Shown: piece after piece, positions 48,674 through 52,673 of the stretch
Position numbering within the stretch: the stretch's first letter is position 1
Layout of the letters: each line of letters begins with the position of its first letter
Source of the DNA: Burkholderia seminalis DSM 23518
Lineage (GTDB): Bacteria; Pseudomonadota; Gammaproteobacteria; Burkholderiales; Burkholderiaceae
Reading direction: 5' to 3'
NCBI RefSeq assembly: GCF_902832885.1
Contig: NZ_CADFDK010000001.1
Location: forward strand, 1,302,001-1,366,000
DNA: 64,000 bases
The notes under the pieces: generated by a model
What the model was told of the DNA's origin: nothing
Databases searched by the model: none
What the model saw: the letters and a program-made list of their open reading frames with translations, nothing else
Program-made: the position numbers and the translations under genes

Positions 48674-49645
48674 TCAGACCGCCATCGGCGCAGTCAGCGG
48701 CTCATGGTGGCGGTAACCGACCAGCGAGAAATCGGACGGCTCGACCTGCTCGAGCCATTCGGGCGCATAAACGCCCGTCTTCGCGTAGTCGGGCACGCGC
48801 TCGGCAATCTCGAGCCGCGGGCTTTCGTAAGGCTCGCGCGTGAGCTGCCGCTGCAGCATGTCGAGCTGGTTCTCGTAGATGTGCGCGTCACCGATGAAAT
48901 ACGTGAACCAGCGCGGCGTGTAGCCCGTCAGGCGGCCGACGAGCGACAGCAGCGCGGCCCCTTCCGTCAGGTTGAACGGCGTGCCGAGGCCGACGTCGTT
49001 GCTGCGGATGTACAGGCACAGCGAGATCTCGCGCTTCGTCGCGTTCGGCAGGAACTGGTACAGCAGGTGGCACGCGGGCAGCGCGATCTGGTCGAGCACG
49101 GCCGGATTCCACGCGTGAAACAGAATGCGGCGGTCGGCCGGATTCTCCATGATCGTGTCCAGGCACTGGCGCAGCTGGTCGATCGCCTTGTACAGCAGCA
49201 CCTTCGGCGCGCCGTCTTCGTCGAAACGCGTGACGATCCGGAAGCCGCGGCGCGTCGCGTCGGCGATCTGCGCGTCGGCGCCCGCGTCGAGCACCTTGTA
49301 GCCCGGCCACTGGCGCCATTGCACGCCGTACACGTCGCCGAGATCGTCGACGCCCTGACGGTACGGATTCGCGAGCCACTGCGCGTTCTCGTTCGCGTTC
49401 GCGTCCCACACCTTGCAGCCGAGCGCGCGGAACTCGGCCGCGCTGCGCGACGCGCGCAGGAAGCCGACCAGTTCGCCGATCGCCGACTTGAACGCGAGCT
49501 TCTTGGTCGTCACGGCCGGAAAGCCTTGCTGCAGGTCGAAGCGGAGCATCGCGCCCGGCATGCTGATGGTGCGGATCCCCGTGCGGTTCTCCTGCCAGGT
49601 GCCGGTATCGAGAATGGTACGAACGAGGTCGAGATACTGTTTCAT
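48674..49645 (-). CDS. thyA: Thymidylate synthase
   Basis: Makes dTMP from dUMP using methylene-tetrahydrofolate. The protein is 323 residues from the ATG at 49645 ([12 protein letters not shown]), against 264 in E. coli; the additional 40-50 residues form an insert at about 113-155, as in the longer ThyA class. The nucleophile is C192 in [10 protein letters not shown], and [12 protein letters not shown] is the substrate loop. The longer frame to 49771 is shadow of the activator gene. It is followed by the activator gene, which lies on the same strand upstream. Confidence 0.97.
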
Positions 49646-49686: not shown

Positions 49687-51084
49687 TTAGCAAGCGTGGT
49701 GAGGAAGCTCCGGCAACGGCGCCGAAAACCCTGCCAGCGTGTCGCCGCGATCGCGCATGCCGTGCGCGCACATCAGCCGGTAGAGCGTGACGCGCGACAC
49801 GCCGAGTTCACGCGCGGCATCCGCGAAACGGCCGCGGTGGCGCAGCAGCGCCTGCTCGATCGCCTGCCGTTCGGCCGCTTCCCGCGCCTCCAGCAGCGAC
49901 ACGGGCGCGAGCGTCGCGAAGTCGTTCAACTCGAGATCGGCCGCGGTGATCATCCGGCCCTCCGACATCACGATCGCGCGGCGCACGCGATTGATCAGCT
50001 CGCGCACGTTGCCCGGCCACGAATAGCCGTACAGCGACGCGACCGCGTCCGGAGAGAAACCGCGCAGGCGGCGATGCGCATCGCCCTTGAAACGCTCGAG
50101 CATGTGACGCGCGAGCACCTCGATGTCCTTGCCGCGCGCGCGCAGCGGCGGCTCCTCGATCTTCAGCACGCACAGGCGATGGAACAGGTCCTCGCGGAAC
50201 CGCCCTTCGCGCAACGCGGCGTCCATGTCCACGTGCGTCGCGCAGATCACGCGCACATCGACGGGCACCGACACGTGCGCACCGAGCCGCTCGATCTTGC
50301 CTTCCTGCAGGAAGCGCAACAGGCTTGCCTGGCTTTCCAGCGGCAGATCGCCGATCTCGTCGAGAAACAGCGTGCCGCCGTTGGCGGCCTCGACGCGGCC
50401 GATCTTGCGCTGGTTCGCCCCGGTGAATGCGCCGCGCTCATAGCCGAACAGTTCGGCCTGCAGCAGCGTCGACGGAATCGCGCCGCAATTGATCGCGATG
50501 AACGGTGCCTGCGCGCGCGACGAACGCTCGTGAATCGCGACCGCCGTCAGTTCCTTGCCGGTACCCGATTCGCCGGAGATGAACACCGGCGCATCGGTCG
50601 CCGCGACGCGGCGAATCGTCCTGAAGAGCCCGAGCATCGCATCGCAGGTGCCGACCATCTCGCCTTCGCTGCGCCCGGCGCCGACCGGCGGCGCAACGGG
50701 ATCGGTCAGCGCGACCATGCCGTGCGCATGACCGACGGTCTCGACGATTCGCGACGTCTCGTACGGCATCGTCACATAATCGAAGCAGTAGTCGCGAATG
50801 AGGTGGCGCAGCGTGGCATCCTGCAACTGGCCGCGACGCGTCGCGGCGATCCAGCCGATGTGCTGGATGCTCAGGCAGGATTCGAGTTCGCGCAGGTCCG
50901 AGGGCTTGAAGCCCGGCGAAAAGTCGAGCAGGCCGGCGGTTGCCACGCCATGCTGCACGACACGCCGGACGTCGCGTACGGTCTCCGCGAGATCGACGCG
51001 CCAGCCGCACTCGTCGAAATGGCCGCGCAACGCGTCGTTCGGTTCGCGCGAATAGTAGATCACGTGCCGCTGATCGGCTCCCAT
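49687..51084 (-). CDS. VpsR-like sigma-54-dependent activator
   Basis: A 465-residue enhancer-binding protein. The N-terminal 125 residues form a receiver-like domain resembling VpsR, with a single candidate aspartate D54 (GLLDFSPG). The AAA+ domain shows Walker A GESGTGKE (171-178), an intact GAFTGA (218-223) that contacts sigma-54, Walker B TLFLDEIG (238-245) and the arginine finger region REDLFHRL (297-304). A Fis-type helix-turn-helix is at 407-440 ([19 protein letters not shown]). It is divergent from the small secreted protein gene, across 500 bases holding a palindrome and a sigma-54 promoter, and it is upstream of thyA by 41 bases. Confidence 0.93.
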
Positions 51085-51452
51085 ATCCTCACCCCGTTCA
51101 TCAACCGTCTAACGATTGCCGCGCACGTCAGAGTTCGTGCGAAAAGGATCGAATCGGGTCAGCCAGAGGCGGCTCGATTCGCCATGCCGATGCTCGGCAA
51201 CGACAAAGCCTCGCATGATGGCGCTTATCTCGCGTCCAGTTATTTTTGGTCAAGACAGCTTAGTTATAGGCACCAGATACGACAAACGGATTTCGGCGCC
51301 GACGGCGATACGGCCCAATCGCACAGGAGGTCGATGCAGGTCAATCATCTGCACATAGCGCATGCGCAGCAAGGTGTTCGTTCATCAACACACGGGCCGA
51401 TTTTCATCCTTGAAGCGAATCGATTGAATCCGCAGTATTCCCGAGCCCCCTC

Positions 51453-51468
51453 GTTTCAGGCCTGAAAC
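51453..51468. promoter_or_regulatory. Perfect 16-bp palindrome, candidate activator-binding site
   Basis: GTTTCAGGCCTGAAAC is an exact dyad. A further half-site TTTCAGGC is repeated at 51471-51478. It stands about 70-85 bases upstream of the sigma-54 promoter, the distance expected of an enhancer site. Confidence 0.75.
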
Positions 51469-51534
51469 ATTTTCAGGCGTTTTCGGCCACAATTCGCAAC
51501 GCTTGAGCGCGAATCGCCGTAGCGACAACGGTCC

Positions 51535-51551
51535 CGGCACGGTGGCATGCA
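51535..51551 (+). promoter_or_regulatory. Sigma-54 (-24/-12) promoter
   Basis: CGGCACGGTGGCATGCA matches the consensus TGGCACGG-N4-TTGCW at all but two of its fixed positions. The invariant GG (51536-51537) and GC (51549-51550) have the required spacing. A transcript would start near 51562, about 26 bases before the ATG at 51588. Confidence 0.8.
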
Positions 51552-51587
51552 TTTCGCTGAATCCGTAAACGATCGGAGACAGCGGCC

Positions 51588-51914
51588 ATGCGCAAACATC
51601 TTTTACTTTCTTTCGTGCCGATGGCGCTCGCGCTCTCGGCCGCCGGCCCGCCTGCGCCGGCCCGCGCGGATGACATCGCAAAACCGGATCGCGCCATGCT
51701 GCCGGCCGAAAATGCGCCGAGCCTGCGGCACGGCAGCGGCTTCGGCATCGTGACCGTGTCCGCACCGCAACCGCTGCCGACCGGCAAGGCAACCGTCACG
51801 CTGTGGGACGAGATCCCGCCACCGCCCCCACTGCCGATGCCGCTTCCGGTATCGCAACCCGGTGACGTGCAGCACGCGATGGAAGGCAACGTTCAAGGCA
51901 ACAAGCGTCAGTGA
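51588..51914 (+). CDS. Small secreted proline-rich protein
   Basis: A 108-residue exported protein. The signal peptide MRKHLLLSFVPMALALSAAG ends near ARA-DD (about residue 27). The mature 80 residues contain a short GFGIVTVSAPQPLPTGKATVTLWDE core and then a run of prolines (IPPPPPLPMPLPVSQP). No cysteine is present. No family recognised. It has GGAG ahead of the start, follows the sigma-54 promoter and faces the VpsR-like activator divergently, so it is the likely target of that activator. Confidence 0.78.
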   Translation: MRKHLLLSFVPMALALSAAGPPAPARADDIAKPDRAMLPAENAPSLRHGSGFGIVTVSAPQPLPTGKATVTLWDEIPPPPPLPMPLPVSQPGDVQHAMEGNVQGNKRQ

Positions 51915-52172: not shown

Positions 52173-52673
52173 ATGACGACGTTGACCCTGATCGTCGCGC
52201 GTGCCCGCAACGGCATCATCGGCCGCGACAACCAGTTGCCCTGGAAACTTCCCGAGGATCTCGCGTTCTTCAAGCGCACGACGATGGGCGCGCCGATCGT
52301 GATGGGCCGCAAGACCCACGAATCGATCGGCCGGCCGCTGCCGGGCCGCCGCAACATCGTCGTCACGCGCGAGGCGGCGCGCCGTTTCGACGGTTGCGAC
52401 ACGGTCACGTCGCTCGCCGATGCACTGGCGCTCGCCGCGCGCGACGGCGTACCCGAGGCATTCCTGATCGGCGGCGCGCAACTCTACGCGGAAGGGCTCA
52501 CGCTCGCCGACAAGCTGGTCGTCACCGAGATCGACGCCGACTTCGACGGCGACGCGTCGTTCCCCGCGCCCGATCCCGCACATTGGCAGGAAGTGTCGCG
52601 CGATGCGCACCAGGCTGCCGCGCCGAACACGTTCGGTTATGCGTTCGTGGTCTACGAACGCAAGCGCGGCTGA
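52173..52673 (+). CDS. folA: Dihydrofolate reductase
   Basis: Reduces dihydrofolate to tetrahydrofolate, restoring the folate that thymidylate synthase oxidises. The protein is 166 residues from the ATG at 52173. The proton-donating residue is D29 in [13 protein letters not shown], and [18 protein letters not shown] is the NADPH-binding region. The frame upstream to 52020 is not conserved. A trimethoprim target. The 258-base gap before it contains nothing I can identify. Confidence 0.96.

Follow-up and report, generated by a model that had tools for sequence, protein, structure and literature searches.

The window, that is, the whole 64,000-nt stretch of Burkholderia seminalis DSM 23518 DNA that was analyzed, contains a locus flanked by thyA on the left (48674..49645, minus strand) and folA on the right (52173..52673, plus strand). 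Two divergent genes lie between these flanks. One of them, taken from the ORF list and characterized by domain search (49687..51084, minus strand), encodes a VpsR/BrfA-type sigma-54 enhancer-binding protein (bEBP) of 465 aa; the other (51588..51914, plus strand) encodes a small proline-rich protein of 108 aa with the core motif VTLWDE. The first-pass annotation of this DNA had proposed a small secreted protein here; the ORF is indeed present, and its signal-like N-terminus is consistent with secretion.

The divergent activator had been described as VpsR-like and as carrying an intact GAFTGA, and both points hold. Pfam places a VpsR domain (PF20161, 75.9 bits against a cut-off of 23.7) at residues 3–118, followed by an AAA+ sigma-54 interaction domain (144–310) with GAFTGA at residues 218–223 and by a Fis-type HTH (401–436), so that all the features by which a bEBP is recognized were found. 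The protein is also similar to solved VpsR chains, and its match to the VpsR N-domain chain 7y19 has an E of 2.5e-9.

Between the two genes, and reading toward the small ORF, we found a conserved block around ATCATCTGCACATA (51343..51358), a distal dyad TTTTCATCCTTGAAGC (51401..51416) that matches 10 of 12 dyad positions and lies 52 bp upstream of the proximal one, a second conserved block TTGAATCCGCAGTATTC (51424..51440), the perfect proximal dyad GTTTCAGGCCTGAAAC (51453..51468), the -24/-12 box TGGCATGCATTTCGCT (51543..51558, plus strand), and a Shine-Dalgarno GGAG (51575..51578, plus strand) read from the sequence. The two blocks are strongly conserved alongside the dyads and the box of the same region. 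Transcription is predicted from the position of the -12 element to start near 51569 on the plus strand, which would leave a 19-nt leader before the ORF and would place the centre of the proximal dyad, a putative upstream activator site, at about -108.

Conservation of the sigma-54 box and the dyads

We aligned the intergenic region of the window with its counterparts in 31 Burkholderia loci, taken from 76 fetched activator loci. In the box TGGCATGCATTTCGCT, 14 of 16 positions are identical in all 32 rows; its GG and GC start 12 bp apart in a TGGCAC-N5-TTGC-like sequence, which is the arrangement of a -24/-12 promoter. Box scores throughout are simple match counts to a consensus from the literature and not values from a calibrated matrix. 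The earlier claim of a sigma-54-type promoter in this gap therefore stands for the conserved box with the 12-bp step, but its coordinates have to be moved. The element originally named, CGGCACGGTGGCATGCA (51535-51551), does contain a GG and a GC; however, the two are 13 bp apart from start to start, the alignment shows variation in the -24 part, and the conserved box starts 8 bp downstream. We give almost no credence to the reading in which 51535-51551 is the promoter of a switch dedicated to one gene, since the step is 13 bp, the -24 part is unconserved and the regulon described below comprises several promoters.

The perfect dyad GTTTCAGGCCTGAAAC is present where it had been reported, and all 32 rows agree at 13 of the 16 dyad positions. 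Its exact sequence occurs once in the 7.97-Mb genome. The window contains 11 perfect 16-bp palindromes, against a mean of 1.5 in 20 mononucleotide shuffles; because of this excess a palindrome alone is weak evidence, and conservation had to decide. Both the dyad and the -24/-12 element proved to be kept across the 31 aligned relatives, as the first reading had expected of a genuine promoter. The DNA between them is less conserved (means of 0.66–0.89 in 10-nt bins from 51474 to 51533). The distal dyad is weaker and fairly conserved, its columns agreeing in 25 to 32 of the 32 rows. An additional half-site TTTCAGGC, to which weight had been given, does occur at 51471-51478, but its columns vary (A in 14/32 rows, G in 22/32 and 24/32), and it was set aside for this poor conservation.

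Recurrence of the module at a fixed spacing

For the count of sites, 47 of the 76 activator loci were used; dyads were scored out of 12 positions, and spacing was taken as the start-to-start distance. All 37 thyA-linked activator loci carry a dyad (at least 10/12) together with a box at 90 bp (24 loci) or 91 bp (13 loci), and none of the 10 activator-like loci without thyA has a dyad and box at -90/-91. VTLWDE, the core motif of the small protein, follows the same division, being encoded in 36/37 thyA-linked loci (all but L039) and in 0/10 of the others. When the 47 loci, L119–L121 and the window were considered together, 72 boxes scored at least 10, and dyads scoring at least 10 were found at -90 (26), -91 (14), -142 (15), -143 (3) and elsewhere (3); among the 1572 boxes scoring 8 to 9.5 in the same set, none had a dyad at -90/-91. 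A strong dyad at -90/-91 was likewise not found at distant activator loci beside fap-like genes in Dechloromonas (L053), Azonexus (L059) and Rhodoferax (L062); in the first two of these, a weak GTTTCA half-dyad (9/12) was seen at -101.

The same combination recurs within the B. seminalis genome, where the composite searches and the reading of six loci revealed seven modules, in the window and at six further places. One of them (L122+5842, dyad 9/12) precedes an exopolysaccharide-type cluster with GT2, bactofilin and YaiO genes; a second in the same locus (L122+10539) precedes a weakly deacetylase-like protein (20.0 bits, under the 23.1 cut-off), and a third (L123-12195) a Gly-rich, secreted-looking protein. 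The module L119+5144 lies some 900 bp upstream of the C4 activator and of small repeat proteins that look secreted, L120+12117 follows the C2 activator, and the last is L124+7029 (C2 near 858028). L122, L123 and L124 were chosen for a dyad plus box and L119–L121 for the presence of paralogues, L119 being also matched in the composite search; L120+12117 and L122+5842 can therefore be regarded as unselected modules, because their loci or sites were not picked for dyad and box. Across the window and the six loci (11–20 kb each, 175 kb), 7 of 14 boxes scoring at least 10 have a dyad (at least 9/12) at -90/-91, and 0 of 3723 lower-scoring boxes do.

At three of these loci (L119, L120 and L124) no clear ORF was found immediately 3' of the promoter. 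Behind L124+7029 (L124:7029-7330), about 130 bp are almost identical to the relative L162, contain no long ORF and are followed by a strong hairpin, which makes this stretch a candidate sigma-54-dependent small RNA. A search of L119, L120 and L124 with Rfam gave one match, far under the gathering score and away from the modules. At L120:12117-12530 the module stands directly 3' of the C2 VpsR paralogue, and the relative L173 shares with this stretch an inverted repeat rich in GC as well as the start of a short ORF.

In searches with one element at a time, the dyad with one mismatch was found at 16 places in the genome, 15 of which were read, and 4/15 (window included) have a box of at least 10 at -90/-91; at the other 11 (L002, L099, L102–L107, L109–L111) no such box was found. 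One of these, L103, lies within L119, which has another module, and has a box at -81. In the divergent region between prpR-like and prpB-like genes (L107), a similar dyad GTTTCAAAAATGAAAT is accompanied by a sigma-54-like box at -102. The box alone was found at 16 places, with a dyad in the window and none at the other 15. The 11 dyads that lack a strong box at this distance, and the one between the prp-like genes with its other spacing, are what would be expected if the dyad were the operator of an unrelated regulator and its distance from the box accidental. We nevertheless regard this as very improbable indeed, as the 90/91-bp spacing is fixed at unlinked promoters and as the composite pattern far exceeds its controls throughout the genus.

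In 51 Burkholderia genomes, our own included, the composite pattern with a gap of 75 gave 172 matches in 47 genomes and that with a gap of 74 gave 106 in 43, a total of 278 (summed from the per-genome counts) against 1 + 1 for the reversed-pattern controls. At least one match was present in 49/51 genomes. The two without any, G030 and G033, are also the sole genomes with a single match to the activator N-terminal domain, and this match has 34% identity and a BerB-like length. In 88 distinct modules the 5th C and 12th G of the dyad are invariant, a result that the selection for 9/12 dyad matches partly builds in. According to the available text of PMC8268162, the 5th C and the 12th G are also the positions on which the palindrome of BrpR, a VpsR orthologue, depends.

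Among the relatives, modules stand before SCPU and usher genes (L155), before a 502-aa protein with 53% Gly (L163), and before a DUF2334 gene and, divergently, a GT2 gene (L154); some (e.g., L157 and L164) have no clear target. The first-pass annotation had suggested that dyads near -24/-12 promoters of exopolysaccharide or secreted-protein genes would support its reading, and such sites do occur both in the own genome and in the genus. Its further notion of a single dedicated switch did not survive, as the module is common to several promoters and two VpsR paralogues could also act. The six further modules in the own genome and the 278 matches in 51 Burkholderia genomes point instead to a regulon. 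We propose that one dyad code, at a fixed spacing from a sigma-54 box and common to matrix-type loci, defines a genus-wide regulon.

The small gene and the fap operon of relatives

The small gene of the window is homologous to the gene that opens the fap operon in relatives. In relatives that lie beyond the close group (L029–L031, L033, L035, L037, L038, L040, L047, L170 and L172), the same promoter stands before fap-type genes. First comes the VTLWDE gene, then one for a product of about 160 aa, usually one in the FapB position (about 215 aa), and one for a FapC-like repeat protein; in loci whose sequence extends beyond this, a FapD-type C39 peptidase, a FapE-position protein and FapF follow. 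FapB and FapE are named by position only. For FapC, FapF and the C39 peptidase the sequences themselves show homology: the FapC-like protein of L158 matched solved FapC at E 1.3e-12, and the FapF-like protein of L170 matched solved FapF at E 1.1e-81. The locus is syntenic, and in L170 (in which the FapB-position gene was not called) and L172 the DNA from the small gene to folA contains the fap operon together with a second activator of VpsR type, within the same thyA–folA flanks as in the window. Reduced states were also observed: L169 and L174 keep the promoter, the small-protein motif and the second activator with no called fap genes, and L039 keeps a FapC-like gene while VTLWDE is absent.

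In the window, a fap operon beside the activator was not found, and a search of the own genome for FapF gave 0 matches; FapC and FapD were sought in the fetched loci, and the six of these from the own genome yielded one weak low-complexity FapC match (L119, E 2.8e-6). FapF was found in 14/51 genomes, at 79–100% identity in 8 and as a distant form (30–34%) in 8, with both in two. The distant FapF family occurs without a near FapF in G012, G015, G019, G023, G037 and G046. At the two Pseudomonas loci that were read, L067 and L071, a fap match was not found. According to the part of PMC3792158 that was available, fap genes are absent from the B. cepacia complex, to which the own genome probably belongs, judging from its nearest loci. 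With respect to the Fap amyloid system as presented there, the promoter is followed in some relatives by genes like FapC, FapD (C39) and FapF, and FapF was not found in the own genome. The simplest reading is a loss of fap in this lineage that left only the small first gene, rather than gains elsewhere.

The promoter could then be a functionless relic of the lost operon, an idea that agrees with the lack of a detected FapF and with the rapid evolution of the small gene. In the set of 25 relatives plus the window, with 324 of the 325 pairs retained after filtering on dS, the median dN/dS of this gene is 0.54, and among the first six 20-codon blocks it falls to 0.36 over codons 60–80, where VTLWDE lies. 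We consider a relic very unlikely, however, because the box and proximal dyad are kept in 31/31 aligned relatives while the intervening DNA is less conserved, and because the small ORF is open (91–120 aa) in all 25 relatives read, as in the window. A retained regulatory module, with one small gene still behind it, suggests a switch that survived the loss of its operon.

Activator paralogues and comparison with known systems

Four proteins with a VpsR domain are encoded in the own genome: that of the window and those designated C4, C2 and C9. The recognition helices of the window activator and of the C4- and C2-type paralogues are nearly identical, and by its sequence the window activator cannot be told from them; both paralogues could thus also act on the module. 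In the tree, which has several long branches and open forks, C4 falls within the group of second activators that flank fap in relatives. C9 has a different recognition helix (SRATLYRWM) and is probably BerB, because the exact published berA sigma-54 box stands before a CRP-like gene in its stretch, together with exopolysaccharide-looking genes.

The near identity of the helices leaves room for the same module being served by a C4-type or C2-type paralogue, with the neighbouring protein not cognate or not acting alone. In relatives, the fap operon has the second activator as a neighbour, and in Pseudomonas fluorescens brfA likewise lies downstream of fapA-F, according to the accessible part of PMC9207406. 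Against this, the second activator is absent from the window locus, and the adjacent activator and the site occur together in 37/37 thyA-linked loci. We therefore judge action by a paralogue unlikely, although with an appreciable chance, and prefer the neighbouring activator, which we infer to be the protein that binds the dyads.

Several characterized systems resemble parts of this arrangement. In the portions of the cited papers that were available, the fapA promoter of P. fluorescens is of the -24/-12 type and fap expression needs RpoN and BrfA (PMC9207406). The BrfA–RpoN system of strain PF07, which controls fapA-E (PMC9207406, PMC13101488), is like the loci of our relatives in that a bEBP stands beside fap with a -24/-12 promoter, and c-di-GMP sensing is reported for BrfA. 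It differs, with BrfA compared by its description, in that fap is absent from the window locus and one fixed-spacing dyad code is common to several matrix-type loci. As far as the accessible text goes, the BerB–RpoN–berA system of B. cenocepacia (PMC5552954, PMC9684580) also combines a bEBP with GAFTGA, RpoN and a biofilm target; its probable BerB counterpart here is distinguished from the window activator by the recognition helix given above. The berA promoter was considered as a member of the module and rejected, as no such dyad was found upstream of the exact berA box (published in PMC5552954, seen in part) in the own genome; therefore, not every VpsR-type activator uses the dyad.

VpsR and BrpR of Vibrio (PMC8268162, PMC3162934, in their accessible parts) share the N-terminal domain with the window activator, and the BrpR regulon holds several exopolysaccharide loci. 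In contrast to the window activator, which has GAFTGA and a sigma-54-type promoter, VpsR reportedly has no intact GAFTGA and acts independently of sigma-54. Binding or sensing of c-di-GMP has been reported for VpsR, BerB and BrfA, and BrpR, VpsR and BerB reportedly bind DNA alike with or without it (PMC8268162, PMC5552954, again in the parts available). A bEBP of the BrfA/BerB type acting with sigma-54 is thus already known. What differs here is a code shared by several promoters at a fixed spacing, and a switch that seems to have outlived its operon. Among the open-licence papers listed, none was seen to describe such a motif or regulon in Burkholderia.

As dyad and box keep their spacing in all 37 thyA-linked loci, GTTTCAGGCCTGAAAC looks like an upstream activator site. 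A VpsR/BrfA-family enhancer-binding protein would sit on one or two dyads (centres at about -108 and -160), loop in a fixed phase to the sigma-54 polymerase at 51543-51558 and drive ATP-dependent open-complex formation, most likely at high c-di-GMP. The window module would then be one copy of a genus-wide regulon under VpsR-type activators that ties together amyloid operons, exopolysaccharide-type clusters, an usher pilus cluster, and Gly-rich and other secreted proteins. We hold this explanation as a whole, a sigma-54 control module with a VpsR/BrfA-type activator on its dyads and membership in a genus-wide matrix regulon, to be highly probable. A more far-reaching version has about an even chance of being correct: that one VpsR-type code (a 16-bp dyad, 90–91 bp from the box) marks a genus-wide, c-di-GMP-gated Burkholderia regulon of amyloid, usher pili and several exopolysaccharides together with Gly-rich secreted proteins and, probably, small RNAs under sigma-54, and that in the own lineage the switch outlived the amyloid operon for which it was built and persists beside one small secreted protein.

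Such a DNA code would be testable and would predict from sequence which Burkholderia genes join the sigma-54 matrix regulon; BrfA-type control would no longer be confined to one amyloid operon but would cover several matrix loci. The fixed spacing would also offer a clean system for studying how enhancer geometry limits sigma-54 activation.

A separate observation concerns the glycosyltransferase behind the module of the relative L154 (L154:5944-7848), which has a C-terminal MshEN domain. MshEN is a c-di-GMP-binding domain; this enzyme and its promoter may therefore both follow c-di-GMP.
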